Shown piece by piece: positions 18,913-43,150 of a DNA stretch of 64,000 nucleotides. The notes under the pieces are model-generated. The model worked only from the letters and a program-made list of their open reading frames with translations. It did not search any database and was not told the origin of the DNA. The stretch lies in assembly GCF_003287935.1 (NCBI RefSeq), contig NZ_CP030287.1:1798001-1862000 (forward strand), given 5' to 3'. This DNA comes from Streptomyces sp. ICC1. Lineage in GTDB: Bacteria; Actinomycetota; Actinomycetes; Streptomycetales; Streptomycetaceae. Every line of letters starts with the position of its first letter. Position 1 is the first letter of the stretch. The position numbers were made by a program, and so were the translations under genes.

Positions 18913-18969
18913 TTCCGTCATGCGGAACAGACTAATTTCGGTATGAACCTGACGTCAACAGTTTGTTGA
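18913..18969 (-). promoter_or_regulatory. Catalase promoter with both operator types
   Basis: Reading the minus strand: -35 TTGACG (18958-18953), 18-base spacer, -10 TAGTCT (18934-18929). The palindrome TCAACAGTTTGTTGA (18955-18969) overlaps the -35, and TTCCGTCATGCGGAA (18913-18927) begins one base after the -10, over the expected transcription start. Confidence 0.75.
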
Positions 18970-19080
18970 AAAGAAAGATGGAGGAGAGGTGATCCGGACG
19001 GTGCCGGCGCTTGGGCGCGACAGGACAGGTGTCAGCACCGGCACCATCCGGAAACTCAGGTCCCCGCGAGCGGGGAGGGG

Positions 19081-19103
19081 GGCGGCCCGGTGAACGGGCC
19101 GCC
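19081..19103 (-). terminator. Terminator of the hyi-reductase operon
   Basis: GGCGGCCCG pairs with CGGGCCGCC around a five-base loop, 14 bases past the reductase stop on the minus strand. Confidence 0.75.
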
Positions 19104-19117
19104 GATCAGAGCGAAGC

Positions 19118-20017
19118 TCAGATCTGGGCGCCGGAGAGGCGCTCGACCGCGCGCAGCAGCGCGGAGTGGTCCAGGCCACCGTCACCCTGGGCGCGCAGCG
19201 AGGCGACCAGCTGGGCGACGACCGCGCCGACCGGGAGGGCCGCACCGACGTTGCGGGCGGCGTCGGTGACGATGCCCATGTCCTTGTGGTGCAGGTCGAT
19301 CCGGAAACCGGGCTTGAAGTCGCGGTTCAGGAAGTTGTTCTTCTTGCGGGTCAGGACCGTGGAGCCGGCCAGGCCGCCGTTGAGGACGTCCAGAGCGGCT
19401 TCGAGGTTGACGCCCGACTTCTCGAGGAAGACGACGGCCTCGGCGCACGCCTGGATGTTCACCGCGACGATGAGCTGGTTGGCAGCCTTCACCGTCTGGC
19501 CGGAGCCGTGCGGACCGCACAGGACGATGGTCTTGCCGAGGGCCTCGAGGACCGGCAGGGCCTCGTCGAAGTCGGCCTGCTCGCCACCCACCATGATCGA
19601 CAGGACGGCCTCGATGGCACCGGCCTCGCCACCGGACACCGGGGCGTCGATGACGCGGATGCCCTTGGCGGCGGCGTTCTTCGCCAGGTCGATCGAGGTC
19701 TGCGGGGTGATCGACGACATGTCGATGATCAGCGCGCCGGACTTGGCGTTCTCGAGGATGCCGTTCTCACCGTAGGAGATGGCCTCGACCTGCGGGGAGG
19801 CGGGCACCATCGTGATGATCACGTCGGCGTCCTTGACCGCGTCGGCGATCGAACCGGCGGCGGAGCCACCGGCCGCGGCGAGGCGGTCCAGCTTGTCCTG
19901 CTCCAGCGTGAAGCCGGTGACCGAGTAGCCGGCCTTCAGGAGGTTCTCGGCCATGGGCGAGCCCATGATTCCGAGTCCGACCCATGCAATCGACGGGAGC
20001 GCAGCGGGGTTGCTCAT
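19118..20017 (-). CDS. glxR: 2-hydroxy-3-oxopropionate (tartronate semialdehyde) reductase
   Basis: A 299-residue member of the beta-hydroxyacid dehydrogenase family that reduces tartronate semialdehyde to D-glycerate with NAD(P)H. It has the Rossmann motif GLGIMGSPMAENLLKAGY near residue 12, the substrate-binding DAPVSGGEAGA and the catalytic Lys motif GQTVKAANQ. The start ATG 20017 has AAGGACC upstream. It is downstream of hyi on the same strand (74 bases between them) with no operator of its own, so the two form an operon. Together with Gcl this gives the glycerate pathway. A related 2-hydroxyacid reductase is the only serious alternative. Confidence 0.93.
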   Translation of the reverse strand: MSNPAALPSIAWVGLGIMGSPMAENLLKAGYSVTGFTLEQDKLDRLAAAGGSAAGSIADAVKDADVIITMVPASPQVEAISYGENGILENAKSGALIIDMSSITPQTSIDLAKNAAAKGIRVIDAPVSGGEAGAIEAVLSIMVGGEQADFDEALPVLEALGKTIVLCGPHGSGQTVKAANQLIVAVNIQACAEAVVFLEKSGVNLEAALDVLNGGLAGSTVLTRKKNNFLNRDFKPGFRIDLHHKDMGIVTDAARNVGAALPVGAVVAQLVASLRAQGDGGLDHSALLRAVERLSGAQI

Positions 20018-20091
20018 GATGAGGGTCCTTCTCTTAATGCTTCGTACGAAAAGTTCGTCAGGTGCCTGGCTGTTCGCCCGGACTTTTCCGC

Positions 20092-20925
20092 CTACTTCGC
20101 GGCGCGGGCCTCGGCGGGCAGCCACGCGAAGGAGGCGGCGGCGTCGGCGGCCTTGTACTCGAGACCGACAAAGCCCTGGTAGCCGGCCTTCTGGAGCTGG
20201 TCGAGCAGCTCTTCGAGGGGCAGCTCACCGGTGCCGGGGGCACCTCGTCCCGGCTTGTCCGCGATCTGGACGTGCCCGGTCTTGGCGGCATACTTTTCGA
20301 TGACCTCGGAGAGGTCCTCATCGTTCATCGCCAGGTGGTACAGGTCGAGGAGGAACTTGGCGTTGCCGAGGCCGGTGGCCTCGTTCACCTTGTCCACGAT
20401 CTCGATGCCGGCCGGGGCGCTCACCAGCGGGTAGAGCGGCGACTCGGGCTTGTTGAGGGTCTCGATCAGGAGGATCGCGCCGACGCGGTCCGCGGCCTGA
20501 GCCGCCACGACCAGGTTCTTCAGCGCGAGCTCGTCCTGAACGGCCGGGTCCACGCCTTCGACGCGGTTGCCGTAGAGGGCGTTCAGCGCCTTGCAGCCGA
20601 CCGAGGCGGCGAAGTCCGCCGCCACGTTGATGTTGGCGTTGAAGCGCTCCGACTCCTCACCGGGAACCGACACCGCACCGCGGTCCGGTCCCGGCAGCTG
20701 GCCGGCGTAGAAGTTCAGGCCCACCAGCTGGGTGCCGGCGTCCTCAAGAGCCTTCTTGAGGGCGTCGAGCTCCGCCTGGGCGGGGGTGGGGGTCTCGATC
20801 CAGGGCCACCACAGCTCGACCGCCGTGAAGCCCGCTGCGGCGGCTGCCGCGGGACGCTCCAGGAGCGGGAGTTCCGTGAAGAGGATCGAAAGATTTACAT
20901 CGAAGCGCTGGTCCGTGTATCCCAT
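20092..20925 (-). CDS. hyi: Hydroxypyruvate isomerase
   Basis: A 277-residue TIM-barrel isomerase interconverting hydroxypyruvate and tartronate semialdehyde. It begins RFDVNLSILFTELPLLERP and carries GFTAVELWWPW, LLIETLNKPESPLYPL and HVQIADKPGRGAPGTGE, all typical of Hyi. The metal-binding Glu/Asp/Gln/Glu set appears intact. The start is ATG 20925; the 340-residue reading that extends further upstream would run through the promoter. It is first gene of the hyi-glxR operon and carries two TTCC-type operators arranged as at gcl. Confidence 0.93.
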   Translation of the reverse strand: MGYTDQRFDVNLSILFTELPLLERPAAAAAAGFTAVELWWPWIETPTPAQAELDALKKALEDAGTQLVGLNFYAGQLPGPDRGAVSVPGEESERFNANINVAADFAASVGCKALNALYGNRVEGVDPAVQDELALKNLVVAAQAADRVGAILLIETLNKPESPLYPLVSAPAGIEIVDKVNEATGLGNAKFLLDLYHLAMNDEDLSEVIEKYAAKTGHVQIADKPGRGAPGTGELPLEELLDQLQKAGYQGFVGLEYKAADAAASFAWLPAEARAAK

Positions 20926-20941
20926 GAGGGGTGTGCGCTCC

Positions 20942-21006
20942 TTCCGTATTGCGGAAGTTAGTTTCTGCCTGATGGAAGACTGCAAGCCCGGTGTCTCACT
21001 TGTCAA
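20942..21006 (-). promoter_or_regulatory. hyi promoter with paired TTCC-N7-GGAA operators
   Basis: Minus strand: -35 TTGACA (21006-21001), 18-base spacer, -10 CAGTCT (20982-20977). Operators: TTCTGCCTGATGGAA (20963-20977) and TTCCGTATTGCGGAA (20942-20956), again 21 bases apart, starting at the -10. Confidence 0.75.
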
Positions 21007-21051
21007 GTACCGACTGCCGAAAAGTCCGGACTGCGGGGTAGCTTGAGCCGC

Positions 21052-21303
21052 GTGCGATTGAGAGTGGAGTTCACGACCGAGCCCTTCGATCTCGAAGAGG
21101 CCCCTGCCCATGCCGTGGCCGCTCGCGAGGTCATCCAGAAGGCCCAGCTGGACGCGGTGGACGTCGGCCCGTTCGGCAACACCGCCGAGGGGGAGGCCGC
21201 CGAGGTGCTGACCGCGGTCACCGCGCTGCTGCGCGATTCGCTGGAGGCCGGAGCGACGCGCGTCTCGCTCCAGGTCAACGTGGTGCGGGAGGAGACGCCA
21301 TGA
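21052..21303 (+). CDS. Small conserved alpha/beta protein coupled to an HTH gene
   Basis: 83 residues from GTG 21052 (an in-frame TTG at 21043 is possible). The sequence starts VRLRVEFTTEPFDLEE, has a helix-like EAPAHAVAAREVIQKA, then DVGPFGNTAEGEAAEVLTAVTA and a closing strand RVSLQVNVVRE. The pattern of strand-helix-strand repeats recalls the small thiamine/metal-binding MTH1187-like fold, but this is only an impression. Its stop overlaps the start of the next gene (ATGA), so the two proteins are probably made in equal amounts. It is divergent from hyi and lies inside the purine cluster, so a sensory role for the next gene's product is plausible but unproven. Confidence 0.65.
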   Translation: MRLRVEFTTEPFDLEEAPAHAVAAREVIQKAQLDAVDVGPFGNTAEGEAAEVLTAVTALLRDSLEAGATRVSLQVNVVREETP

Positions 21304-21683
21304 CCGAGCCCCGCGACCACCCGTTCGTCACCGCGGTGAAGCCGCTGGTGGACGCGATGGGCGGCGAGCTGATGGATCCCGCGCTGGCCCAGCCCGACGA
21401 CGTGGTGCTGGCCTGGGAGGGTCAGGACCTGCTGGCCGTACGGCTGCCGCAGCTCTCCGACTCGCTGGACCACATCCTGGCGGCGCTGGAGCGCCGGCAC
21501 GGCGTACCGTTGTCGCAGCTCGACCGGAAGTCCAAGCAGGACACCGTGCGGATACTCGAGGCACGCGGCGCCTTTTCCGTGAGGCACGGCGTGGAGACGG
21601 TCGCGGGAGCCCTGGGCGTAAGCCGTTTCACGGTCTACAACTACTTGAACCGGGAAAACCCGAACAAAAACAACCAAGAGTAA
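21300..21683 (+). CDS. Helix-turn-helix regulator (YheO/HTH_22-like C-terminus)
   Basis: 127 residues. The N-terminal 80 residues have no motif I know. The C-terminus (KQDTVRILEARGAFSVRHGV, then VAGALGVSRFTVYNYLNREN) is the winged HTH seen at the end of YheO/DauR-type regulators: a helix, the phrase GAF.VR.GVE.VA, and a recognition helix SRFTVYNYL. It starts inside the stop of the small protein before it. Because it sits between hyi and the uricase genes, it is the best local candidate for the unassigned TCAACA-N3-TGTTGA operator (inference). No operator was seen in front of its own pair. Confidence 0.7.
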   Translation: MTEPRDHPFVTAVKPLVDAMGGELMDPALAQPDDVVLAWEGQDLLAVRLPQLSDSLDHILAALERRHGVPLSQLDRKSKQDTVRILEARGAFSVRHGVETVAGALGVSRFTVYNYLNRENPNKNNQE

Positions 21684-21754
21684 GACCCGCTTGACCCACG
21701 GTGACGAGCCGCCGCCCTATTCACCCGGGCGGCGGCTTTTGTGTACGGGAAGTT

Positions 21755-21794
21755 TCAACAAAGTGTTGACGCCGTGTTGTCGAAGGCGTTAGCT
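21755..21794 (+). promoter_or_regulatory. uraD promoter with TCAACA-type operator
   Basis: -35 TTGACG (21766-21771), 17-base spacer, -10 TTAGCT (21789-21794). The palindrome TCAACAAAGTGTTGA (21755-21769) overlaps the -35. Expected leader to the GTG at 21836 is about 35 bases. Confidence 0.75.
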
Positions 21795-21835
21795 ATGCCC
21801 AGCCCGTCAAAGCAACAAGGCCACGGAGGCCTACC

Positions 21836-22351
21836 GTGACTTCGAGTCCGACCCCGGGTCTCACCCGGTTCAACACCTTGGACGACAGCGCGGCCACGGC
21901 CGAACTGCACGAGGTGTGCGCCAGCTCGGCGTGGGGGAGCAAACTGCTCGCCCAGCGTCCCTTCGCCAGCGCCGACACCCTGTTCTCCGCGAACGAGGCC
22001 GCCATGGCCGAGCTCACCGCGGAGGACCTGGCCGAGGCGATGGGAGGCCACGCGCCGATCGGCCGGCCGAAGCCGGGAGACCCGACCTCCGCCCGCGAGC
22101 AGCGTGGCATGGCCGGTGCCCCGGAGGAGCTCAAGACCGAGCTCCTCGAACTGAACCTGGCCTACCAGGACAAGTTCGGCCACGTCTTCCTCATCTGCGC
22201 CACCGGTGCGACCGGTGAGTTCATGCGGGACGCGGTCAAGGTCCGGATCGGCAACTCGCCGGAGCAGGAGCGGGAAATCGCTCGCGGCGAGCTCGTCAAG
22301 ATCAACCGGATCCGCCTGACCCGCCTCGTGGAATCCGCAGAAGGAGCGTAA
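21836..22351 (+). CDS. uraD: OHCU decarboxylase
   Basis: A 171-residue 2-oxo-4-hydroxy-4-carboxy-5-ureidoimidazoline decarboxylase, the last step giving S-allantoin. The catalytic His lies in AMGGHAPIGRPKPGD. FGHVFLICATG and EFMRDAVKVRIGNSPEQE are family signatures. GTG 21836 follows GGAGGCC. First gene of uraD-uraH-uricase, all on the plus strand with gaps of a few bases. Control is probably through the TCAACA palindrome on its -35. Confidence 0.95.
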   Translation: MTSSPTPGLTRFNTLDDSAATAELHEVCASSAWGSKLLAQRPFASADTLFSANEAAMAELTAEDLAEAMGGHAPIGRPKPGDPTSAREQRGMAGAPEELKTELLELNLAYQDKFGHVFLICATGATGEFMRDAVKVRIGNSPEQEREIARGELVKINRIRLTRLVESAEGA

Positions 22352-22359
22352 GACCGAGC

Positions 22360-22749
22360 ATGAGCACTGAGACCACCGCGTCGGTGTCCACGCACATCCT
22401 GGACACCAGCATCGGAAAGCCCGCCGAAGGCGTCGCGATCTCCCTGTCGGCCCGTACGGGTCCGGGCGGCGAGTGGGCGGCCCTGGGCGGCTCCGCCACC
22501 GATGTGGACGGGCGCTGCAAGGACCTGCCGGCTCTGCCGGAGGGCACCACCCACGTACGCCTCGACTTCGAGACCGAGACGTACTTCTCAATGAAGCAAG
22601 CCGAGGCGCAGCAGGACGCCCCCCGCGTAAGGGACAGCGGTGCGTTTTTCCCGGAGGTCACCATCACCTTTGCGGTGAACCCGGGCGAGCACTATCACGT
22701 ACCGCTGCTGCTCAACCCGTTCGGCTACTCCGTTTACCGAGGGAGCTAG
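22360..22749 (+). CDS. uraH: 5-hydroxyisourate hydrolase (transthyretin-like)
   Basis: 129 residues. It hydrolyses the uricase product 5-hydroxyisourate to OHCU. It starts VSTHILDTSIGKPAEGVAIS and ends in the family-defining YRGS tetrapeptide. The His and Arg ligands of the active site are present (STHILDT, HVRLDFETETYF, EHYHVPLLLNPFGYS). It sits eight bases after uraD and five before uricase, so it is part of the same transcript. Confidence 0.96.
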   Translation: MSTETTASVSTHILDTSIGKPAEGVAISLSARTGPGGEWAALGGSATDVDGRCKDLPALPEGTTHVRLDFETETYFSMKQAEAQQDAPRVRDSGAFFPEVTITFAVNPGEHYHVPLLLNPFGYSVYRGS

Positions 22750-22754
22750 CAGAC

Positions 22755-23678
22755 ATGCCCACGATTCTCGGCCAGAACCAGTACGGCAAAGCAGAGAACC
22801 GCGTAGTCAAGATCACGCGGGATGGCGACACCCATCACATCAAGGACCTGAACGTCTCGGTCGCCCTCTCGGGTGACATGGACGACGTCCACTACTCCGG
22901 CTCGAACGCCAACGTCCTGCCGACGGACACCACCAAGAACACGGTGTACGCGTTCGCCAAGGAGTACGGCATCGAGTCCGCCGAGCAGTTCGGCATCCAC
23001 CTGGCGCGCTGGTTCGTCAACAGCCAGGAGCCGATCCAGAAGGCGCGCATCCGGATCGAGGAGTACTCCTGGTCCCGGATCGCCACCTCGGACGCCAACT
23101 CCAAGTTCATCGGCTCCGACGAGGTGAACCACTCCTTCCTCCGCAACGGCGGCGAGACCCGGGTCACCCAGATCACGTACGACGGCAAGAACTGGGAGGT
23201 CATCTCCGGCCTCAAGGACCTCGTCGTCATGAACTCCACGAACTCCGAGTTCTGGGGTTACGTGAAGGACAAGTACACGACCCTGAAGGAGGCCTACGAC
23301 CGCATCCTGGCGACCCAGGTTTCGGCTCGCTGGCGCTTCGCCTGGTCGGATGACGAGCAGCGGATGCCCAACTGGGAGAAGTCCTACGCCGAGACCCGGA
23401 AGCACATGCTCCAGGCCTTCGCGGAGACCTACTCCCTCTCGCTGCAGCAGACCCTGTACCAGATGGGTTCGCGCATCATCAACCACCGTTCGGAGATCGA
23501 CGAGGTCCGCTTCTCGCTCCCGAACAAGCACCACTTCCTCGTCGACCTGGAGCCCTTCGGCCTCAAGAACGACAATGAGGTGTACTTCGCCGCGGACCGC
23601 CCGTACGGTCTGATCGAGGCGACGGTCCTCCGCGACGGCGTCGACGCCCGTATCCCCGTGGACATGACCAACCTCTGA
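22755..23678 (+). CDS. Urate oxidase (uricase)
   Basis: 307 residues, cofactor-free uricase oxidising urate to 5-hydroxyisourate with release of H2O2. Two T-fold domains are visible: ILGQNQYGKAENRVVKITRD, then the catalytic Lys/Thr dyad with PTDTTKNTVYAFAKEYG, and the urate-binding YSLSLQQTLYQMG and LPNKHHFLVDLEPFGLKNDNE. The start ATG 22755 is the usual one for bacterial uricases. The peroxide it makes explains the co-regulated catalase. A modest hairpin (23693-23717) follows. Confidence 0.97.
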   Translation: MPTILGQNQYGKAENRVVKITRDGDTHHIKDLNVSVALSGDMDDVHYSGSNANVLPTDTTKNTVYAFAKEYGIESAEQFGIHLARWFVNSQEPIQKARIRIEEYSWSRIATSDANSKFIGSDEVNHSFLRNGGETRVTQITYDGKNWEVISGLKDLVVMNSTNSEFWGYVKDKYTTLKEAYDRILATQVSARWRFAWSDDEQRMPNWEKSYAETRKHMLQAFAETYSLSLQQTLYQMGSRIINHRSEIDEVRFSLPNKHHFLVDLEPFGLKNDNEVYFAADRPYGLIEATVLRDGVDARIPVDMTNL

Positions 23679-23692
23679 TGCGGCACGCGCGT

Positions 23693-23717
23693 CCCGGGGC
23701 TCCGCAGTGGCCCCGGG
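23693..23717 (+). terminator. Hairpin after uricase
   Basis: CCCGGGGC pairs with GCCCCGGG around a nine-base loop, 15 bases after the uricase stop. Confidence 0.55.
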
Positions 23718-23868
23718 GCGGTGCGACACCCTTCAACTTCCTGAATCGGCACCCGGACGCACCACGCGGGGCGGCAGTACTGTCAGCTGTCAAGGCCCCC
23801 GGCTCCGGCACTCAAATCCCCTGGGTTTTGCCGTGCCCGCACCGCCACTGAAAGCACGAGGAAGTCCC

Positions 23869-25272
23869 ATGGCAGCATCGGCAGCCAATGACAGCGCCGT
23901 AGAGCGCATCGTCATCGAGAACTGTGCGATTGCAACCGTTGATGCGAACGACACCGAGTACGCCTCGGGCTACGTCGTCGTCGCAGGAAACAAGATCGAG
24001 GCCATCGGCGCGGGCAAGGCCCCCGAGAACCTCGACAATGTGGTCCGCCGCATCGACGGCACGGGTCACCTCGTCACCCCGGGTCTGGTCAACACCCACC
24101 ACCACTTCTACCAGTGGATCACGCGTGGTCTGGCCACCGACCACAACCTGTTCAACTGGCTCGTCGCGCTGTACCCGACGTGGGCGCGCATCGACGAGCA
24201 GATGACGTACACGGCCGCGCAGGGCTCCCTCGCCGCGATGGCCAAGGGCGGCGTCACCACCGCCATGGACCACCACTACGTGTTCCCCAAGGGCTCCGGC
24301 GACCTCTCCGGCTCGATCATCCGCGCCGCGTCCGAGATGGGCGTCCGCTTCACCCTCGCCCGCGGTTCGATGGACCGCAGCGAGAAGGACGGCGGTCTGC
24401 CGCCGGACCACGCGGTCGAGACGCTCGAGGGTGCGCTCGCGGACACCGAGGCGACGGTGAAGAAGTACCACGACGCCTCCTTCGACGCGATGACCCAGGT
24501 CGCCGTCGCCCCCTGCTCCCCCTTCTCGGTCTCCACCGAACTGCTCAAGCAGGGTGCCGAGATGGCCCGCCGCCTGGGTGTGCGCATGCACACGCACGGC
24601 TCGGAGACCGTCGAGGAAGAGCAGTTCTGCAAGGAACTGTTCGGCATGGGCCCGACCGACTACTTCGAGTCGACCGGCTGGCTCGGCGAGGACGTGTGGA
24701 TGGCGCACAGCGTCCACATGAACGACTCCGACATCGCCGCGTTCGCCCGCACCAAGACCGGTGTCGCGCACTGCCCGTCCTCCAACGCCCGTCTGGCCGC
24801 CGGCATCGCCCGCGTCCCGGACATGCTCGCCGCCGGTGTCCCGGTCGGCCTCGGCGTGGACGGCACCGCCTCCAACGAGTCCGGTGAACTGCACACCGAG
24901 CTGCGCAACGCGCTCCTCATCAACCGCCTGAACCCGGTCCACCGCGAGCGCGCCCTCAACGCGCGCCAGGCCCTGCGCCTCGGTACGTACGGTGGCGCCC
25001 AGGTCCTCGGCCGCGCCGACAACATCGGCTCGCTCGAGGTCGGCAAGTGCGCCGACCTGGTGATGTGGAACCTGAGCACGCTCCTGCACTCCTCGATCGC
25101 CGACCCGGTCACCGCGCTGGTCTTCGGTGCGGCCGCCCCGGTGACCCTGTCGCTGGTCAACGGCAAGCAGATCGTCGAGAACAACCGCCTCCTCTTCGCC
25201 GACGAGGACGCCATCGCGGTGTCCACCCGGGAAGAGGCCCAGCGCCTCGCGCGGATCTCCGCGCAGGCCTGA
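23869..25272 (+). CDS. 8-oxoguanine deaminase / amidohydrolase
   Basis: 467 residues, a metal-dependent amidohydrolase of the cytosine/8-oxoguanine deaminase group. The metal site is NTHHHFYQW (HxH), a later His in HTHGSETVEEEQF and HSVHMNDSDI, and Asp in GLGVDGTASNESGE. 8-oxoguanine deaminase makes urate directly, which explains its place after uricase. Plain guanine deaminase is the alternative. The start ATG 23869 has GAGGAAG upstream. There is a 190-base gap after uricase with a hairpin, so it probably has its own promoter. Confidence 0.88.
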   Translation: MAASAANDSAVERIVIENCAIATVDANDTEYASGYVVVAGNKIEAIGAGKAPENLDNVVRRIDGTGHLVTPGLVNTHHHFYQWITRGLATDHNLFNWLVALYPTWARIDEQMTYTAAQGSLAAMAKGGVTTAMDHHYVFPKGSGDLSGSIIRAASEMGVRFTLARGSMDRSEKDGGLPPDHAVETLEGALADTEATVKKYHDASFDAMTQVAVAPCSPFSVSTELLKQGAEMARRLGVRMHTHGSETVEEEQFCKELFGMGPTDYFESTGWLGEDVWMAHSVHMNDSDIAAFARTKTGVAHCPSSNARLAAGIARVPDMLAAGVPVGLGVDGTASNESGELHTELRNALLINRLNPVHRERALNARQALRLGTYGGAQVLGRADNIGSLEVGKCADLVMWNLSTLLHSSIADPVTALVFGAAAPVTLSLVNGKQIVENNRLLFADEDAIAVSTREEAQRLARISAQA

Positions 25273-25648
25273 TCCCACGGAGTCCGGCTGGGGGGGACGG
25301 CCCCCGGCCGGCGGCCGCGGACCCGAGCGGGGTCCGCGGCAGCCGTTCCCGGGTAGCGCCCGAGGGTTTTCCCGAAGGCGCCCCGGGGCCGGTGACTCGT
25401 GCCACTGGCCCCGCAGCCCGTGTACGACACCTCGCCACGGCACCTCCAGCTCTTTTTCCGCTTTCCGCTTTTGGCTCTCCGCGTGGAACGACTCGGGCGA
25501 ACCGTTTCCGCACCCCTTGGGACAAGCATTCGCAGCACCCCGCAGCACCCACAACTCCATACAGGCTCGACTCGCACAGCTCAGCTTTCGCATCACCTCC
25601 CAGACACATCACGTCCCTGCCGACGTGTTAAACAGTTCGGAGGAAGCC
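25273..25648. other. Gene-free stretch before the purine permease
   Basis: 376 bases. The first part holds the deaminase terminator; the rest is probably the permease promoter and leader. I see neither of the two operator palindromes here and no riboswitch I can recognise. Confidence 0.5.
25314..25340 (+). terminator. Terminator after the deaminase
   Basis: GCCGCGGACCC pairs with GGGTCCGCGGC around a five-base loop, 42 bases past the stop. Confidence 0.7.
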
Positions 25649-27058: not shown

Positions 27059-27087
27059 CCGGGCTCTGCCCGGCCGGTGCGCGGAGC

Positions 27088-33855: not shown

Positions 33856-35475
33856 TCAGCCGACGAGCTGGTCGTAGGCCGGGAGGGTGAGGAAGTCGGC
33901 GTAGTCCGCGTCCAGGGACACCTGGAGGAGGAGGTCGTGGGCCTGCTGCCACTTGCCGGAGGTGAAGGCCTCCTCGCCGACCTCGGCGCGGATCGCGGCG
34001 AGTTCGGCCGCGGCGACCTCGCGGGCCAGGTCCGCGGTGGCGAGCTTGCCGTTCTCGAAGACGACGCCGGCGTTGATCCACTGCCAGATCTGCGAGCGCG
34101 AGATCTCGGCGGTGGCCGCGTCCTCCATCAGGCCGAAGATGCCGACGGCGCCGAGGCCGCGCAGCCACGCCTCGATGTAGCGGATGCCGACCTGGACCGC
34201 GTTGCGCAGGCCGTCGTAGGTGGGCTTCGCGTCCAGGGAGTCGATGGCGATGAGCTCGCCCGCGGCCACGTGGACGTCCTCGCGCAGGCGGTCCTTCTGG
34301 TTCGGCTTCTCGCCGAGGACCGCGTCGAAGGAGGCCATGGCGATCGGGACCAGGTCCGGGTGGGCGACCCAGGAGCCGTCGAAGCCGTCGCCGGCCTCGC
34401 GGTCCTTGTCGGCCTTGACCTTCTCGAAGGCGATCTTGTTGATCTCGGCGTCCTTGCGGGACGGGATGAAGGCCGCCATGCCGCCGATGGCGTGCGCGCC
34501 GCGCTTGTGGCAGGTCTTGACCAGCAGCTCGGTGTAGGCGCGCATGAACGGGGCGGTCATCGTCACCGCGTTGCGGTCCGGCAGGACGAACTTCTCGCCG
34601 CCGTCACGGAAGTTCTTGACGATGGAGAAGAGGTAGTCCCAGCGGCCGGCGTTCAGGCCCGCCGCGTGGTCGCGCAGCTCGAAGAGGATCTCTTCCATCT
34701 CGTACGCGGCGGTGATGGTCTCGATCAGGACGGTCGCGCGGACCGTGCCCTGCGGGATGCCGACGTAGTCCTGGGCGAAGACGAAGATCTCGTTCCACAG
34801 GCGCGCCTCGAGGTGCGACTCCGTCTTCGGCAGGTAGAAGTACGGGCCCTTGCCGAGGTCGATCAGACGCTTGGCGTTGTGGAAGAAGTACAGGCCGAAG
34901 TCGACGAGCGAGCCGGACGCCGGGCCGTCCTCGAAGCGCAGGTGGCGCTCCTCGAGGTGCCAGCCGCGCGGGCGCATCACGACGGTGGCGAGCTGCTCGG
35001 CGGGCTTCAGCGCGTACGCCTTGCCGGTGCGGGCGTCGGTGAAGTCGATGCGGCGCTCGTAGGCGTCGATCAGGTTGAGCTGGCCGATGACGACGTTCTC
35101 CCAGGTGGGAGCCGAGGCGTCCTCGAAGTCGGCGAGCCAGACCTTGGCGCCCGAGTTCAGGGCGTTGATGGTCATCTTGCGGTCCGTCGGACCGGTGATC
35201 TCCACACGGCGGTCGTTCAGCGCGGCCGGGGCCGGCGCCACCTTCCAGTCGCCCTCGCGGACCTGTGCGGTGTCCGGGAGGAAGTCGAGGGTGGAAGTGC
35301 GGGCGATCTCGGCACGGCGCACGCCGCGGCGGGCGAGGAGCTCGGCGCGGCGGGGGGCGAACCGCCGGTGGAGCTCGGCCACGAAGGCGAGAGCCGCGTC
35401 CGAGAGGACCTCGTCCTGCCGGGGCAGGGGCTCGGCGTCGACGATGGCCAGCGATGACGGCGCTGGTGCGGACAT
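33856..35475 (-). CDS. aceB: Malate synthase A
   Basis: 539 residues. It condenses glyoxylate with acetyl-CoA to malate. MINALNSGAKVWLADFEDAS-type core, RPRGWHLEERH, ATVLIETITAAYEMEEILFELRDH (Mg/glyoxylate site) and the C-terminal catalytic Asp region LMEDAATAEISRSQIWQWI are intact. The start ATG 35475 follows AAGGAG at eight bases. It gives a second exit for glyoxylate from allantoin. The promoter carries a TTCC palindrome that fills the -35/-10 spacer and a TCAACA-type palindrome over the -35. No isocitrate lyase is in the window. Confidence 0.96.
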   Translation of the reverse strand: MSAPAPSSLAIVDAEPLPRQDEVLSDAALAFVAELHRRFAPRRAELLARRGVRRAEIARTSTLDFLPDTAQVREGDWKVAPAPAALNDRRVEITGPTDRKMTINALNSGAKVWLADFEDASAPTWENVVIGQLNLIDAYERRIDFTDARTGKAYALKPAEQLATVVMRPRGWHLEERHLRFEDGPASGSLVDFGLYFFHNAKRLIDLGKGPYFYLPKTESHLEARLWNEIFVFAQDYVGIPQGTVRATVLIETITAAYEMEEILFELRDHAAGLNAGRWDYLFSIVKNFRDGGEKFVLPDRNAVTMTAPFMRAYTELLVKTCHKRGAHAIGGMAAFIPSRKDAEINKIAFEKVKADKDREAGDGFDGSWVAHPDLVPIAMASFDAVLGEKPNQKDRLREDVHVAAGELIAIDSLDAKPTYDGLRNAVQVGIRYIEAWLRGLGAVGIFGLMEDAATAEISRSQIWQWINAGVVFENGKLATADLAREVAAAELAAIRAEVGEEAFTSGKWQQAHDLLLQVSLDADYADFLTLPAYDQLVG

Positions 35476-35616: not shown

Positions 35617-35656
35617 ATAGTAATTTCCTCATGGTGGAAGTTCAATGGTTTGTTGA
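35617..35656 (-). promoter_or_regulatory. aceB promoter with both operator types
   Basis: Minus strand: -35 TTGAAC (35645-35640), 17-base spacer, -10 TACTAT (35622-35617). TTCC-TCATGGT-GGAA (35625-35639) occupies the spacer. TCAATGGTTTGTTGA (35642-35656) overlaps the -35; its left arm matches the family in four of six bases. Confidence 0.75.
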
Positions 35657-36578: not shown

Positions 36579-36592
36579 CGCGGCATCTCCTT

Positions 36593-36654
36593 GCCAATCG
36601 GGGGCCAATGCAGCGAGTCTGGACTTGGATTGGCCTGGCGGGCAGAGCCAATCG
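36593..36654. promoter_or_regulatory. GCCAAT repeats between mocR and the divergent small ORF
   Basis: Four copies: GCCAATCG (36593-36600), GCCAATG (36604-36610), inverted ATTGGC (36629-36634) and GCCAATCG (36647-36654). MocR-type regulators commonly bind such repeated sites near their own promoters. Confidence 0.55.
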
Positions 36655-36666
36655 AGGGAGGTTGGC

Positions 36667-38154
36667 ATGGCAAACGGGCGAGTGGTCCATACGGCGGACA
36701 GGATGCTCGGCAGCCGCCAGCTCGCCGCCCTGCTCCCGGCGGAGGTACTGGCACGCCCCGGCTACCGGTCCCTGGCCGACGCCGTCCGCACCCTGATCCT
36801 CGACGGCCGGATCGCCCTGCACGTCCGGCTGCCCGCCGAACGCGAGCTCGCCGAAGCGGTCGGCGCCAGCCGGGCCACCGTCACCGGCGCCTACGACCTC
36901 CTGCGCGAGAGCGGCTACGTCCGCAGCCGGCGCGGCTCCGGCACCTGGACCGAGCTCCCCGAGGGCCACCGCCCGGTCGGCGCGCACGCCCTCGTCGGCG
37001 CCGGCGGCTACAGCGCCGACGGCGACCCCGGCATCGACCTCGCCATCGCCGCCATGGGCGCCCCCGAGGGCAGCCTCACCGACGCGCTGGCCTGGGCCGG
37101 GTCCAGGCTCCCGGAGCTCGCCCGCAGTCCCGGCTACCACCCCTTCGGGCTGCCCGACCTGCGCACGGCCGTCGCCGACCGGTTCACCCGGCGCGGGCTC
37201 GCCACCCGCCCGGAGCAGATCCTCGTCACGGCGGGCGCGCAGCACGCCTTCGCGCTGGTGGTGAGCCTGCTGTGCCGGCCCGGGGACCGGGTGATGACCG
37301 AGAACCCGACCTACGCCAACGCGCTGGACGCCCTGCGGCACGCGCGGCTGCGCACCGGGTCGATCGCCGTCTCCGACGCGGGCTGGGACCTGGAGATCGC
37401 CGAGTCCGCGCTGCGCCAGACCGTCCCCCGGCTGGCGTACGTGATCCCTGACTTCCACAACCCGACGGGCGCGCTGATGCCGCGGGAGCAGCGGGTGCGG
37501 CTGCTCGAGGCGACGCGGCGGACCGGGACCTGGCTGGTGGTGGACGAGACCATCGCCGACATCGCCCTCGACGTGCCCGCGCCCGCCCCGCTGGCCTCGC
37601 TCGCGGCGAGGGGCGGGGCCGAGCACGTGGTGACCATCGGGTCGCTGAGCAAGACGCACTGGGGCGGGCTGCGGGTCGGGTGGGTCCGGGCCACCGCCAA
37701 GATGATCACGGAGCTGACGGCGGTACGGGTCGCCAGCGACATGACCGGGTCGGTACTGGACCAGCTGGTGGCCCTGCCGCTGCTGGAGGGCCTGGAGCGG
37801 TCGCTGCCCGGGCGGCTGGAGCAGCTGCGCGAACAGCGGGCGGCGCTGGTGGCCTCGCTGGAGCGGCACACGCCGGAATGGTCCTGGCAGCTGCCCCCGG
37901 GCGGCCTCTCGCTCTGGGTGGACCTCGGCGAGCCGGTGAGCTCCGCGCTGGCGGAACGGGCGGAGCGGGCCGGGGTGCACATCGGCCGCGGCGCCCGCTT
38001 CGGGGTGGACCCGGGGACCTTCGAGCACCGGCTGCGGATCCCGTACTCCCTGCCGGCGGACCGGCTGGACGAGGGCGTGCGCCGCCTCGCGGCGGCCTTC
38101 CACGACGGCGTCCCGCTGCCTTCGTCGGTGGAGCGCCCGTACTGGGTGGCGTAG
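36667..38154 (+). CDS. MocR family regulator (GntR HTH + aminotransferase-like domain)
   Basis: 495 residues. The winged HTH is at about residues 30-95: YRSLADAVRTLILDGRIALH, AERELAEAVGASRATVTGAYDLL, YVRSRRGSGTW. The rest is a fold-type I aminotransferase: PDFHNPTGALMPREQR, and the PLP Lys in GSLSKTHWGGLRVGW. MocR proteins sense PLP or amino-acid adducts and often control a divergent membrane gene, but no YczE-like partner is next to it here. ATG 36667 follows GGGAGG. Repeated GCCAAT boxes lie in the upstream region. Confidence 0.92.
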   Translation: MANGRVVHTADRMLGSRQLAALLPAEVLARPGYRSLADAVRTLILDGRIALHVRLPAERELAEAVGASRATVTGAYDLLRESGYVRSRRGSGTWTELPEGHRPVGAHALVGAGGYSADGDPGIDLAIAAMGAPEGSLTDALAWAGSRLPELARSPGYHPFGLPDLRTAVADRFTRRGLATRPEQILVTAGAQHAFALVVSLLCRPGDRVMTENPTYANALDALRHARLRTGSIAVSDAGWDLEIAESALRQTVPRLAYVIPDFHNPTGALMPREQRVRLLEATRRTGTWLVVDETIADIALDVPAPAPLASLAARGGAEHVVTIGSLSKTHWGGLRVGWVRATAKMITELTAVRVASDMTGSVLDQLVALPLLEGLERSLPGRLEQLREQRAALVASLERHTPEWSWQLPPGGLSLWVDLGEPVSSALAERAERAGVHIGRGARFGVDPGTFEHRLRIPYSLPADRLDEGVRRLAAAFHDGVPLPSSVERPYWVA

Positions 38155-38174
38155 GCCGCCCCCGGGATGGGGGC

Positions 38175-38810
38175 TTACGGCGTGCGGATCAGGCGGCGGG
38201 TGGCGGCCGCGGCCACCGCCGAGGTGCGGGAGTCGACGCCGAGCTTGGCGTAGATGTGGACCAGGTGGGACTTGACCGTGGCCTGGCTGAGGAAGAGCTG
38301 CTTGGAGATCTGCTGGTTCGAGAGGCCGTCCGCGACCAGCTGGAGGACCTCCAGCTCCCGCTTGGTCAGGGCCTCCGCGGGCGTGCGCATGCGGTCCATC
38401 AGGCGCAGCGCCACCGCCGGGGCCAGCGCGGACTGGCCCGCCGCCGCCGTGCGGACCGCCGCCGCGAGCTCCTCCGGCGGGGCGTCCTTGAGGAGGTAGC
38501 CCGAGGCGCCCGCCTCCACCGCCGCCAGGATGTCCGCGTCCGTGTCGTACGTGGTCAGGACCAGCACCCGGGGAGCCGAGGGCCGAGCCGTGATCAGCGC
38601 CGTGGCCGCCGAGCCGTGCATTCCGGGGCCGGGGCCGAACTGGAGGTCCATCAGGACCACGTCCACCCCGGCGCGGCCGGCGATCTCCACGGCCGCTTCC
38701 GCCGTCGCCGCCTCCGCGACCACCGCGAAGTCCGGCTCGGTGTCCAGCACCGCGCGCAGCCCGGCCCGGACCACCGGGTGGTCGTCGGCGAGGAGGAGCC
38801 GGATCGTCAT
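38175..38810 (-). CDS. NarL/LuxR-type response regulator
   Basis: 211 residues. The receiver domain begins IRLLLADDHPVVRAGLRAVL. The phospho-acceptor is Asp in DVVLMDLQFG, Thr is in VLVLTTYDTD and Lys in GYLLKDAPPEEL. The LuxR HTH closes the protein: LTKRELEVLQLVADGLSNQQ, then KQLFLSQATVKSHLVHIYAKL. Its start overlaps the stop of the histidine kinase (ATGA), and both face the ABC exporter at 40129, so it probably controls that exporter. Confidence 0.95.
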   Translation of the reverse strand: MTIRLLLADDHPVVRAGLRAVLDTEPDFAVVAEAATAEAAVEIAGRAGVDVVLMDLQFGPGPGMHGSAATALITARPSAPRVLVLTTYDTDADILAAVEAGASGYLLKDAPPEELAAAVRTAAAGQSALAPAVALRLMDRMRTPAEALTKRELEVLQLVADGLSNQQISKQLFLSQATVKSHLVHIYAKLGVDSRTSAVAAAATRRLIRTP

Positions 38811-39994
38811 GACAGTGCCTCCGCGGGCAAGGGCAGGGTGACGGCCACGGCGGTGCCCTGGCCGGGGGAGGACTCGACCGTGAACAGGCCGCTGAGGGTC
38901 TCGGCCCGCGAGCGCATCGCCGGCAGGCCGAAGCCGCCCCCGCCCGAGGGGGCGGAGGAGGCCGAGGAGGGATCGAAGCCCTTGCCGTCGTCGACGATGT
39001 CCAGCGTCACGGAGGTGTCCATGAAGGTCAGGGTGATCTCGGCGCGCCCCGCGCCCGCGTGGCGCACCACATTGGCCAGCGCCGACTGCGCGATCCGCAG
39101 CAGCGCCACCTCGTAGGGCGTGGGCAGGGGCCGGGGCGTGCCGCTGAGGGAGAACCGGACCCGCGGGCCCGGCGCCCCCGAGCACAGTCGCTCCAGCGCG
39201 GCCGGCAGCGAACCGTGCTCCAGGTCGGGAGGCGTGAGGGCCCGTACGAACCGCCGCGCCTCGGCGAGGTTGTCCTGCGCGGCCTCCCGGGCCCGGCCGA
39301 TGTGCGCCACGGCCGGCGAGTCCGCGGGCAGGCTGCGCTCCGCCGCCCGCAGCAGCAGCTGGATGGAGGAGAGCCCCTGCGCCAGGGTGTCGTGGATCTC
39401 CCGGGCGAGGCGTTCGCGCTCCGCCAGGATCCCGGCGGAGCGCTCGGCCGCCGCCAGCTCGGCCCTCGTCGTGATGAGCTCCTCGATCAGCTCGCGGCGC
39501 CGCTCGCTCTCCCGGTACAGCGCCTGGTAGCCCAGTACGGTCGCCACCGCCACGGCCCCGCCCAGCAGCGGCCCGAGGAAGGCCCCGGGCGTCACCGACC
39601 GGCTGTGCGCGAGGAAGCCGCCGATCGCCGCGCAGGCCGTGACGGCCACGGCCGTCACCCCCCAGCGCAGCCGCAGCAGGTGCAGCTCCAGGAAGTACAG
39701 CGGGAAGGCGATCCACAGCCCGTCGGGGGAGACCACGAGCAGCCCCGCCCAGGCCGCGCAGAGCCCGGCCAGCCACACCGCCCCGGCGCGCGCCGAGCGG
39801 TGCACCACGGGGGCCAGTACGCCGGCCACGTACACGGCGGCCAGCACGGCGCAGGCCGCGACCACCCAGCCCGCGCGCGGGCTGGAGTCGGCGACGGCCC
39901 GTCCGGCGGCGAGCGCGAGCAGGCCGAAGAGCAGCGCGTGCAGGCACAGGCGCAGGACGCGGGAGACCGGGGTCAGGGTGCGGGGAGCAGTCAT
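38807..39994 (-). CDS. Sensor histidine kinase (HisKA_3)
   Basis: 395 residues from ATG 39994. Five or six membrane spans fill the first 170 residues (LCLHALLFGLLALAAGRA, VVAACAVLAAVYVAGVLAPV and others) with no large outside domain. The DHp site is REIHDTLAQGLSSIQLLL and the HATPase has NVVRHAGAGRA and DDGKGFDP. A Gly-rich G2 loop (GGGGFGLPAMRSRAETL) is present. It is typical of membrane-stress sensors paired with ABC exporters. Translationally coupled to its regulator. Confidence 0.94.
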   Translation of the reverse strand: MTAPRTLTPVSRVLRLCLHALLFGLLALAAGRAVADSSPRAGWVVAACAVLAAVYVAGVLAPVVHRSARAGAVWLAGLCAAWAGLLVVSPDGLWIAFPLYFLELHLLRLRWGVTAVAVTACAAIGGFLAHSRSVTPGAFLGPLLGGAVAVATVLGYQALYRESERRRELIEELITTRAELAAAERSAGILAERERLAREIHDTLAQGLSSIQLLLRAAERSLPADSPAVAHIGRAREAAQDNLAEARRFVRALTPPDLEHGSLPAALERLCSGAPGPRVRFSLSGTPRPLPTPYEVALLRIAQSALANVVRHAGAGRAEITLTFMDTSVTLDIVDDGKGFDPSSASSAPSGGGGFGLPAMRSRAETLSGLFTVESSPGQGTAVAVTLPLPAEALS

Positions 39995-40128
39995 GGCCTG
40001 ACCAGCGTAAGTCCGGGTCCGGCGGCCCCGGTCAACCAAAAGTTCGATGTCCGCGTGGGTCCTTGGATACGAGGATTACTACTGTGGCGCGATGCCTTGT
40101 GTCCACGCGGAAGACCAAGGTGGGGAAC

Positions 40129-41220
40129 ATGTTCGTCGCATGGAGAGATCTACGGTTCGCCAAGGGCCGCTTCGCCCTGATGGGCTCGGTCGTACTGCTG
40201 ATCACGCTGCTGGTCGGCCTGTTGTCCGGGCTCACCGCGGGCCTGGCCCGGGAGAACATCTCGGCCATCACCGGTCTGCCCGCCACCACCCGCCTCGCCT
40301 TCGCCGCTCCGGCCGGGGACCAGAAGGTCTCCTTCACCAACTCCCAGGTGCCCGAGAAGGCCTGGCTGGGCTGGCGGGAGCGGCCGGGGGTGACCTCGGC
40401 GGAGCCGCTGGGCATCCGCACCACCAACGCCGTCTCGGGTGAGCGCACCGCTGCGGTGTCGGTCTTCGGCGTGGATCCGGCGGGCCGGCTGGGCCCGCGG
40501 GACAAGGGCCTGACCCAGGGGCGGGCGGTCCTCAGCGAGAAGGCCGCCGAGGAGCTCGGCGGGCTCAAGGCCGGCGCCAAGCTCAAGATCGGCCCGCTGG
40601 AGCTGACGGTGGCCGCCGTCTCCGGCACGGCGTCCCACAGCCACACCCCGGTCGTCTGGACGGACCTCAACGACTGGCAGCGCGTCGGCAACCCCGGCAC
40701 CTCCATCGACACCCTCGCCACGGTCGTCGCCCTGGACGCGGCGGGCGACGTGGACTGGGCGGCCGGGGACGAGGCCACCGGCACCAGGGCCCAGACCGTG
40801 GACGAGGCGCTGAGCGCGATCGGCTCCTACACCTCGGAGAACGGCTCGCTCCAGCTGATGCGGGGGTTCCTCTTCGCCATCTCCGCGCTCGTCATAGGAG
40901 CCTTCTTCACGGTGTGGACCATCCAGCGCAGCGGGGACGTCGCCGTGCTGAAGGCACTGGGTGCCTCCACCCCGTACCTCCTGAAGGACGCGCTGGGGCA
41001 GGCCGTGGTGATGCTGGTGCTCGGCACGGGCGCGGGCACCGCGCTCGCCGCCGGCTTCGGCGCCCTGATCAGCGGCGGCGCCGTGCCCTTCGTGCTCGAC
41101 GCCGCCACGGTGCTGGTCCCGGCCGCCGTCATGATCGCGCTCGGCGCGCTGGGCGCGGCCCTGTCCATCCGGCGGATCACCGCCGTAGACCCCCTGACCG
41201 CTCTCGGGAGTGCCCGATGA
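40129..41220 (+). CDS. ABC transporter permease (FtsX/MacB-like)
   Basis: 363 residues. An N-terminal membrane helix (FALMGSVVLLITLLVGLLSG) is followed by a large outside domain of about 200 residues, then three helices near the C-terminus (LFAISALVIGAFFTVWTIQR, AVVMLVLGTGAGTALAAG, AAVMIALGALGAALSIRR). This is the FtsX fold of MacB/LolC-type exporters. ATG 40129 follows AAGGTGGGGA. Its stop overlaps the ATPase start. It is divergent from the two-component genes, which implies sensing and export of an envelope-active compound. Confidence 0.92.
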   Translation: MFVAWRDLRFAKGRFALMGSVVLLITLLVGLLSGLTAGLARENISAITGLPATTRLAFAAPAGDQKVSFTNSQVPEKAWLGWRERPGVTSAEPLGIRTTNAVSGERTAAVSVFGVDPAGRLGPRDKGLTQGRAVLSEKAAEELGGLKAGAKLKIGPLELTVAAVSGTASHSHTPVVWTDLNDWQRVGNPGTSIDTLATVVALDAAGDVDWAAGDEATGTRAQTVDEALSAIGSYTSENGSLQLMRGFLFAISALVIGAFFTVWTIQRSGDVAVLKALGASTPYLLKDALGQAVVMLVLGTGAGTALAAGFGALISGGAVPFVLDAATVLVPAAVMIALGALGAALSIRRITAVDPLTALGSAR

Positions 41221-41909
41221 CCCTGCTCGTATCCGACGTCACCCTCACCTACCCGGACGGCGACGGCCGGCTCACGGCCCTGGACGCGGTCGGCCTGGAG
41301 GTGCCGGCGGGCACCCTGACGGCGGTCATCGGCCCCTCCGGCTCCGGCAAGTCCAGTCTGCTCGCGGTCGCCGCCACCCTCGTCACGCCCGATACGGGGC
41401 GGGTCGTCGTCGCGGGGCAGGACACCGCGAAATTGGGGGCGGCCGAGAAGTCGGCCCTGCGCCGGGAGAAGATCGGCATCGTCTTCCAGCAGCCGAACCT
41501 GCTGGCCTCGCTCACCGCCGCCGAACAGCTCCAGGTCATGGCGCACATCAACGGCCGCCCCGCGCGCGCCCTGCGCCGGCGGGCCCTGGAGCTGCTGGAC
41601 GCGGTGGGTCTGGCGGACAAGGCCGACAGGCGGCCGCACCAGCTCTCCGGGGGGCAGCGCCAGCGGATCAACATCGCCCGCGCCCTGATGAACGAGCCCG
41701 CCGTGCTGCTCGTGGACGAGCCGACCAGCGCCCTGGACCACGAGCGCGGCGCCGCGATCCTGGACCTGCTCGTCACCCTCACCCGGGAGCGCTCCACCGC
41801 CACCGTGCTGGTCACCCACGACCACGCGCACCTGGAGCGGATGGACGCCACGGCGACCATGACCGACGGCCGTCTGACGCAGGGCGCGGAGCCCGCGCCG
41901 GCGGCCTGA
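41217..41909 (+). CDS. ABC transporter ATP-binding protein (LolD/MacB-like)
   Basis: 230 residues. Walker A GPSGSGKSSL, Q-loop FQQPNLL, signature LSGGQRQRI, Walker B AVLLVDEPTSALD and the switch His in LVTHDHAHLERM are all intact. It pairs with the FtsX-type permease whose stop codon it overlaps. A bidirectional hairpin follows it. Confidence 0.95.
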   Translation: MTLLVSDVTLTYPDGDGRLTALDAVGLEVPAGTLTAVIGPSGSGKSSLLAVAATLVTPDTGRVVVAGQDTAKLGAAEKSALRREKIGIVFQQPNLLASLTAAEQLQVMAHINGRPARALRRRALELLDAVGLADKADRRPHQLSGGQRQRINIARALMNEPAVLLVDEPTSALDHERGAAILDLLVTLTRERSTATVLVTHDHAHLERMDATATMTDGRLTQGAEPAPAA

Positions 41910-41957
41910 CGGGCGCCCGTACGGAGCCCCGCGCGGCCGGCGGCCCGGGAGGACGCG

Positions 41958-41993
41958 AGAGCCCGGCGCCCCCACCAGGGGGCGCCGGGCTCT
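41958..41993. terminator. Shared terminator, ABC ATPase / allR
   Basis: A perfect 16-bp stem, AGAGCCCGGCGCCCCC with its complement, around ACCA, between convergent stops. Confidence 0.88.
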
Positions 41994-42019
41994 TTCCGCG
42001 TCTACCGCCCGGCCAGGGC

Positions 42020-42823
42020 CTACGCCGGGTTCTGGCTCTGCAGGGCCACCGACAGCTCGGCGGCGACGCCCTGCAGGATCGGCACGAAGGACTCGGCGAC
42101 CGCCTCGGTCACCCGCCCGGCCGGGCCGGAGATGGAGATCGCGGCGGCGGTCGGCGAGTTCGGCACGGAGACCGCGAGGCAGCGGACTCCTATCTCCTGC
42201 TCGTTGTCGTCGACCGCGTAGCCCAGCTTGCGGACCTGCTCCAGGGCGGCCAGGAAGCCCTCGGGCGTGGTGATGGTCTTCTCGGTCGCGGCCGGCATCC
42301 CGGTGCGCGAGAGCAGGGCCCGGACCTCGTCCGCGGGGGTGTAGGCGAGCAGAGCCTTGCCCACGCCGGTGGAGTGCGGCAGCACGCGGCGGCCGACCTC
42401 GGTGAACATGCGCATGGAGTGCTTGGACGGCACCTGGGCGACGTAGACGATCTCGTCCCCGTCGAGCAGGGCCATGTTCGCCGTTTCGCCGGTCTCCTCG
42501 ACCAGGCGGGCGAGGTAGGGGCGGGCCCAGGTGCCCAGCAGCCTTGAGGCGGACTCGCCGAGGCGGATCAGCCGGGGGCCGAGGGAGTACCGTCGGTTGG
42601 GCTGCTGCCGGACGTAGCCGCACGCCACGAGGGTGCGCATGAGGCGATGGATGGTGGGCAGCGGCAGACCGCTGGCGGCGGAGAGCTCGCTGAGGCCGAC
42701 TTCGCCCCCCGCGTCGGCCATGCGTTCGAGCAGATCGAAGGCGCGCTCAAGGGACTGGACGCCACCGCTGGCGGCGGCGGGCTTGGTGGAGTCGTCGGTG
42801 GTGCTGGCGCTGGACGTCGGCAC
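42020..42823 (-). CDS. allR: IclR family regulator of the allantoin/glyoxylate genes
   Basis: 267 residues from GTG 42823 (GAAAGGACC upstream). The winged HTH is at about 22-75: VQSLERAFDLLERMADAGGE, LSELSAASGLPLPTIHRLMR, GYVRQQPNRRYSLG. The effector domain is the usual IclR C-terminus (FTEVGRRVLPHSTGVGKALL, ISISGPAGRVTE). Its place next to divergent allB matches AllR of S. coelicolor, a repressor released by allantoate/glyoxylate. A TTCC-ATCCTGT-GGAA palindrome lies in the shared upstream region. It is the likely reader of the TTCC family. Confidence 0.9.
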   Translation of the reverse strand: MPTSSASTTDDSTKPAAASGGVQSLERAFDLLERMADAGGEVGLSELSAASGLPLPTIHRLMRTLVACGYVRQQPNRRYSLGPRLIRLGESASRLLGTWARPYLARLVEETGETANMALLDGDEIVYVAQVPSKHSMRMFTEVGRRVLPHSTGVGKALLAYTPADEVRALLSRTGMPAATEKTITTPEGFLAALEQVRKLGYAVDDNEQEIGVRCLAVSVPNSPTAAAISISGPAGRVTEAVAESFVPILQGVAAELSVALQSQNPA

Positions 42824-43150
42824 GGCGCGGTCCTTTCGGTGCTGGCAGGCAAGGAAGCAGCCTACCGGTCGGTCGGCGTCGGCCCTAGAGCCGGGGCAAT
42901 GCCGTCCCCGCCGGTCAGAGGCGGTTTGTCCTGGTGGCGGACGTCCTCGGGAAGTTACCTGCCCAGTCCCTGGTGGTGGTAGCTACATTCTGCATAGTGA
43001 AATCTTAATTCCATCCTGTGGAAACATCCAATTGCGGAACGGGCGGGTCAGTGGTCCGTCCGGGCGCTCTTGACTGGTTCCGCATCGACGGGAAGACTCC
43101 GTCAACAGAACGTTGAATTTCGCTCTGTGGAAGTAGATGGGGAGGTTCCG
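42824..43150. promoter_or_regulatory. allR-allB divergent control region
   Basis: Contains TTCCATCCTGTGGAA (43009-43023), TCAACAGAACGTTGA (43102-43116) and TTTCGCTCTGTGGAA (43118-43132, one base off the family). The last two lie next to each other, as at aceB, with a possible -35 TTGAA inside the first. The allB -10 is unclear (TAGATG at 43134-43139 is a weak candidate). Confidence 0.7.

Follow-up and report, generated by a model that had tools for sequence, protein, structure and literature searches.

Which protein reads the palindrome TCAACA-N3-TGTTGA in Streptomyces sp. ICC1? The question is raised by a stretch of 64,000 nucleotides (contig NZ_CP030287.1, positions 1,798,001 to 1,862,000; hereafter the window), in which copies of this palindrome stand before uraD, catalase, aceB and allB. 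The likely answer, drawn from the comparison of genomes, is a pathway-specific regulator that joins a PF01910 domain to an HTH_22 domain. The palindrome would be its operator, and the regulator would probably be a repressor that is released by an intermediate of purine breakdown. In the window the two domains are encoded by a pair of overlapping genes upstream of uraD:

21052 to 21303, + strand: PF01910 (thiamine-binding, MTH1187-type) protein, proposed sensor half; GTG start chosen by eye
21300 to 21683, + strand: HTH_22 protein, proposed DNA-binding half; PF13309 E 2.8e-19; its ATG overlaps the preceding stop (ATGA)

The palindrome, its promoters and its genes

The palindrome is real, with four sites in the window that are far above chance. 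An earlier note on this DNA had described four nearly identical 15-mers, and all four are there:

21755 to 21769, + strand: predicted operator of uraD-hiuH-uricase; TCAACAAAGTGTTGA, exact match, with the -35 hexamer TTGACG within the right arm
18955 to 18969, - strand: predicted operator of catalase; TCAACAAACTGTTGA when read towards the gene, then CG; exact match
35642 to 35656, - strand: predicted weak operator of aceB; TCAACAAACCATTGA towards the gene; two mismatches, matrix score 20.0, adjoining a TTCC-N7-GGAA box
43102 to 43116, + strand: predicted weak operator in the allB/allR gap; TCAACAGAACGTTGA; one mismatch, matrix score 20.9 on the - strand

At up to three mismatches the window holds 22 matches to the pattern, against 3.79 expected. 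A weight matrix trained on 35 exact copies in other genomes places the same four sites at the top of the window (best-strand scores 43.8, 37.3, 20.9 and 20.0), and the highest score over 12 Markov windows was 9.7; the matrix sites were selected by the motif, so that only the flanking and spacer columns carry information independent of the pattern. The whole genome (9.03 Mb) contains four exact copies, compared with about 0.02 expected from base composition, and no exact copy of a reversed-pattern control. With up to two mismatches the counts are 215 for the palindrome and 85 for the control.

What lies behind these sites? The genes in question are:

21836 to 22351, + strand: uraD (2-oxo-4-hydroxy-4-carboxy-5-ureidoimidazoline decarboxylase), first gene of the urate operon; PF09349 E 2.3e-37
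22360 to 22749, + strand: hiuH-like gene (hydroxyisourate hydrolase), named by its pathway position and next to uraD in relatives too
22755 to 23678, + strand: uricase-like gene, recognized in the sequence by eye and kept in the operon of relatives
17416 to 18873, - strand: catalase; PF00199 E 1.6e-186
33856 to 35475, - strand: aceB, malate synthase; PF01274 E 2.2e-108
43151 to 44494, + strand: allB, amidohydrolase (allantoinase); PF01979 E 1.1e-21

The right arm, TGTTGA(C), doubles as the -35 hexamer at uraD, catalase and aceB, and a -10-like hexamer follows 17-18 bases on. Read by eye, the promoters are TTGACG-N18-TAGCTA for uraD, TTGACG-N18-TAGTCT for catalase and TTGAAC-N17-TACTAT for aceB. 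The claim that all four palindromes lie over or next to a -35 box thus holds for these three, whereas at allB the spacer between -35 and -10 would be merely 15. The second part of the claim, that the palindrome is a family distinct from the TTCC-N7-GGAA boxes and absent from gcl and hyi, is borne out: the palindrome contains no such box, and neither of those two genes has a matrix match above background.

The sites are also conserved. Among 80 Streptomyces loci, which are the best 80 of 449 found via the HTH_22 protein and are closely related to the window, every one has the exact motif 76-125 bp 5' of uraD, with the spacer AAG in 73 and AAC in seven. The left arm is invariant in all 80 although a promoter could dispense with it, which points to a binding site. 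All 61 loci that have catalase in the fetched DNA carry the exact motif within 400 bp of it; in the other 19 catalase falls outside the fetched stretch. The motif search in related streptomycetes that the earlier note proposed therefore bears it out at uraD and catalase, and only in part at aceB (see below). The exact motif is present in 55 of 61 genomes of the family.

The company that it keeps there is telling. Fifty exact family copies were inspected (30 loci and 20 picked from the listed remainder), and 48 of them stand 5' of purine or glyoxylate genes: uraD (26), aceB (9; exact versions include those of the relatives L097, L118 and L122), DUF6986 (7), malic enzyme (4, two called by Pfam and two by resemblance), catalase (1) and a xanthine/uracil-type permease (1). 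The two unexplained sites are L099, inside a gene, and L102. These targets suggest a predicted regulon that spans purine uptake and oxidation through to glyoxylate use. It is wider than had been thought, taking in urease in this genome and malic enzyme, DUF6986, the permease and xanthine dehydrogenase in relatives. The presence of two of its members makes sense from the pathway: uricase makes hydrogen peroxide, which fits catalase, and urea is released further down, which fits urease.

Some of these places deserve a word of their own. The DUF6986 (HpcH/HpaI-aldolase-like) gene has the exact motif 5' in seven places in other genera (L105, L110, L113, L114, L129, L132 and L135), and this recurrence suggests that it may take part in using carbon from glyoxylate or purines. 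In four places (L103, L108, L133 and L134) the motif precedes a malic enzyme with a weak match to the ACT domain. The urease site, outside the window (L004; TCAACAAAGTGTTGACG towards the gene), is identical to the uraD site across 17 bases. The fourth exact copy in the genome, after those at catalase, uraD and urease, lies in the gap between cydA and a divergent cyclophilin-like gene (PF04126), 10 bp 5' of the latter (L003:1501-1515 / L301:3657-3671), and has no evident link to purines. Both the urease and the cydA sites recur in a near relative, G176 (L303 for the latter); neither appeared as a genus-wide feature in the sampled Streptomyces, where other exact copies are partly unassigned.

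Co-occurrence with the PF01910-HTH_22 gene pair

The earlier note offered the HTH_22 protein at 21300 as a candidate regulator. Does the motif follow this gene? In a survey of the class (148 genomes, with an orthologue taken as a match with E below 1e-18) the orthologue is present in 13 genomes, uraD in 69 and the exact motif in 34. In each of the 13 regulator-bearing genomes the urate operon carries the motif, which lies within 67-100 bp of uraD in 12 and before uricase in one (G100). None of the 56 genomes that have uraD and lack the orthologue shows it there: the exact form is missing from 46, and in 10 it lies elsewhere (more than 300 kb away or on another contig).

The association extends beyond the family. 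Five genomes from four families other than that of the window have both domains (G100, G643, G698, G644 and G687), and in all five the exact motif precedes uraD or uricase; one of the fetched stretches has a guanine-cytosine content of 53%. In G100 a second exact copy is found 17 kb off, before a xanthine-dehydrogenase-type operon (a 2Fe-2S gene, then large-subunit-like frames). Nor is gene nearness the cause of the motif at uraD, since 13 kb separate the HTH_22 gene of G048 from uraD, which has kept the motif. A search of the class with the fused protein gave five weak matches outside the family (G106, G520, G636, G637 and G690), which concern the HTH part alone; G106, the one checked for the motif, has none.

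Cases of loss within the family agree with this. Twenty-one family genomes were picked for having no or few motifs, and the HTH_22 gene is present in all 15 that have the motif and missing in five of the six that do not. The sixth, G022 (L228), keeps the HTH_22 frame, has an internal deletion in the PF01910 gene and has no motif, a hint that neither part suffices alone. The regulator is lost in G025 (L225); the uraD promoter retains TGTTGACG and CTAGCTT, and the left arm is gone. A remnant that resembles the last part of the HTH_22 protein extends into this promoter, and perhaps one deletion took both the gene and the left arm. Natural decay of either half of the pair thus coincides with loss of the operator at uraD.

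The aceB promoter gives a further comparison. An intact left half-site is found there in 10 of the 22 genomes with the regulator and in none of the 13 without it (Fisher 0.005, with kinship ignored), a pattern that is suggestive of an association between motif and regulator. TCAACA is one base out of register in G199 and G205 (with the regulator) and in G368 (without it), and the automatic register is poor (score 7-8 of 12) in G392, G303, G001 and G011; these rows were kept, with G011 scored as intact on the strength of a separately found exact motif. G340 and G447 gave no match at aceB.

Is the regulator the HTH_22 protein alone, or the pair? The pair 21052-21303 and 21300-21683 very probably encodes it together, judging from gene order and from the fact that in other actinobacteria the two domains form one protein. 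In all 80 loci a PF01910 gene comes before the HTH_22 gene; the overlap is the same (distance -3) in 68, and the overlapping Streptomyces genes are probably translationally coupled. In G100, from another family, both domains share one reading frame; they are likewise fused in G643, G698 and G687 and split in G644. Fused homologues number 1025 at E 0.001 among 8000 scored, and 114 of the 120 best homologues listed from the protein search have both Pfam domains. The candidate named in the earlier note is therefore supported as a component, though not as the whole regulator. Action of the HTH_22 protein without its partner was considered and ranked lower, again because both domains are one protein elsewhere.

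Both domain assignments pass their cut-offs: HTH_22 with 69.4 bits against 29.6 (65.4 in the fused protein) and PF01910 with 26.2 against 24.9 (41.2 in the fused protein). HTH_22 is the only Pfam domain in the protein of 21300-21680, and NCBIfam has no fitting model for it. The string RFTVYNYLNR in the HTH region is nearly invariant across fused homologues and occurs in the window protein too, as would be expected if all of them read one operator. The predicted structure of a full fusion (P0092; mean predicted local distance difference test 80.4, predicted template modelling score 0.55) has a confident ferredoxin-like N-terminal domain, a disordered linker and a confident C-terminal helical domain. 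In a fold comparison of residues 1-93, shell proteins came first, and PII and shell proteins scored at least as high as the MTH1187/TM0486/YkoF family. The model thus supports the common ferredoxin-like fold for the N-terminal domain and nothing further.

A probable repressor at the -35 box and its alternatives

How might such a regulator work? A dimer of the HTH_22 part would cover the palindrome and block recognition of the -35 box at uraD-hiuH-uricase and catalase. The PF01910 part would bind a purine-pathway intermediate (urate or a close product), and the protein would then leave the DNA. A ligand-controlled repressor is suggested by the overlap with the -35 box and by the pattern of decay. 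AllR would act at some of the same promoters through TTCC-N7-GGAA boxes. On a broader view, the PF01910-HTH_22 proteins, two separate polypeptides in Streptomycetaceae and usually a single one in other actinobacteria, may form a separate class of purine-catabolite-sensing repressor, with the thiamine-binding-type fold as the sensor of urate or something near it and an operator older than the split of several actinobacterial families; for this we put the chances a little above even.

Several observations weigh against a repressor of this kind. Twelve of the 22 regulator-bearing genomes have no intact left half-site at aceB, which shows the predicted aceB operator often leaving the regulon while the regulator gene stays in several Streptomyces. 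Of 296 Streptomyces, 12 are without the HTH_22 gene, and five of these 12 have the exact motif. Three of the five share a context free of purine genes (the exact motif has such a common context in G185, G400 and G447). The regulator-less G368 and G303 (L262) keep an exact site, at uraD and between allB and allR, respectively; recent loss of the regulator would explain them, and they are still direct counter-examples. The other side of this count, that 10 of the 12 have no motif at a pathway promoter, is weak, the presence of the urate operon having been checked in some only. Because of kinship among the genomes, these counts cannot be treated as independent trials, and Fisher values overstate the case. 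The regulator is mostly found beside uraD, so the site of another regulator may conceivably have been inherited along with it. Finally, PF01910 may have an enzyme-like or a storage role here instead of acting as a sensor.

What if the same protein is an activator that recruits polymerase from the -35 region when its ligand is present? Strong conservation of the site fits either sign. However, the -35 hexamer sits inside the palindrome, and in G025 and the regulator-less aceB promoters the -35 and -10 elements outlive the left arm, as fits loss of a repressor better. Activation is thus unlikely, if the strongest of the alternatives.

A second possibility is that AllR binds both motif families, its operator having two forms of which the palindrome is one. 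In the window there is an allR gene, and TTCC-N7-GGAA, which following the earlier note we presume to be the box of AllR, occurs at gcl, catalase, hyi, aceB and allR/allB:

42020 to 42823, - strand: allR, IclR-type regulator; PF01614 E 2.6e-42, PF09339 E 1.2e-18
18913 to 18927, + strand: AllR-type box at catalase
35625 to 35639, + strand: AllR-type box (TTCC-N7-GGAA) at aceB, within the -35/-10 spacer
43118 to 43132, + strand: AllR-type box at allB; one mismatch, 1 bp past the palindrome

The palindrome abuts a box of this kind at aceB (35625-35656) and allB (43102-43132), as it does between allR and aceB in relatives such as L097 and L118, and it is retained between allB and allR in G303, which has no HTH_22 gene; all of this would suit a single protein. 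At uraD, however, there is no TTCC-N7-GGAA box, even with one mismatch, so that uraD has the palindrome only, as had been noted, while catalase, aceB and allB have both elements. The two also part company at aceB, which speaks against one protein for both: 10 of 13 regulator-less aceB promoters keep TTCC/GGAA (at least 10 of 12) without an intact palindrome. A homologue of allR was seen in the regulator-less G185, G012, G025 and G303, the last two outside those 10. The motif furthermore tracks the PF01910-HTH_22 gene into other families, where AllR was not searched for. AllR as the reader of both families, the outcome that would have undone the earlier proposal, is improbable on this comparison, and a second regulator distinct from that of the TTCC box is favoured. 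With two operators on one promoter, the abutting box lying in the spacer between -35 and -10 at both aceB and allB, joint control by two regulators is suggested there.

Just as improbable is some other, unlinked regulator (of the TetR, GntR or MarR type, for example), with the PF01910-HTH_22 genes as mere frequent neighbours. A conserved neighbourhood can imitate functional linkage, and the sites in G368 and G303 persist without the regulator. Yet motif and gene are together in five genomes of four other families with no other regulator seen between them, the second copy in G100 precedes a xanthine-dehydrogenase-type operon, and 13 kb lie between gene and site in G048. That the palindrome is an artefact, a TTGAC -35 box with an inverted copy beside it by chance, has next to no probability, since the resemblance of the right arm to a -35 hexamer leaves unexplained the excess of exact copies, the unchanging left arm and the purine or glyoxylate genes behind 48 of 50 copies.

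With a putative PF01910-HTH_22 repressor, a gene pair that has no name in annotation would acquire the role of a regulator, together with an operator and a regulon. The proposal would also point to sensing as a new function of the PF01910 fold, and it makes the more than one thousand fused homologues testable candidate regulators of purine use. One further element lies between the pair and uraD, a terminator-like hairpin whose GC-rich stem and T run are visible in the conservation profile of the 80 loci:

21708 to 21740, + strand: terminator-like hairpin GCCGCCGCCC/GGGCGGCGGC followed by TTTT, read by eye; it parts the regulator genes from uraD

Relation to known systems

HTH_22 and PF01910 are known domains and pathway-specific operators are of an ordinary kind. 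An account of the motif or of the pair was not found in the literature searched, a search that left out most subscription journals and in effect the HTH_22 literature; within it, the operator and the role of the pair as a regulator are apparently undescribed. A comparable operon is hpxQTO (SCO6209-6211) of S. coelicolor, which is affected by SenS-SenR (PMC4991794). The same operon type responds, whereas the SenR site predicted there is GC-rich and unlike the palindrome. SCO6208, by its number just before uraD (SCO6209, PMC4991794), is listed as a putative transposase in another report (PMC3897704) and may be a misannotated HTH_22 protein. The passages of PMC3711429 deal with other domains.

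AllR of S. coelicolor, of the IclR family, reportedly controls allantoin and glyoxylate genes. It serves the same pathway and has its homologue in the window at 42020-42823, but its presumed box is unlike the palindrome and is missing at uraD. The HTH_22 regulators of the YheO/DauR type have an N-terminal PAS-like domain. They share their DNA-binding domain with the window protein, whose Pfam content is HTH_22 only and whose partner is PF01910 in place of a PAS-like domain. From the MTH1187/TM0486/YkoF proteins (PF01910) the pair differs in being coupled to a DNA-binding domain and in falling far under the cut-off of TIGR00106, the MTH1187 thiamine-binding equivalog (17.5, 21.0 and 25.4 bits against 54.7). 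HucR and PecS are urate-responsive MarR regulators of urate-linked genes. The proposed regulator belongs to another DNA-binding family, with no MarR domain in either protein at E 0.001 in Pfam, and would resemble them in what it governs, genes that are likewise linked to urate.

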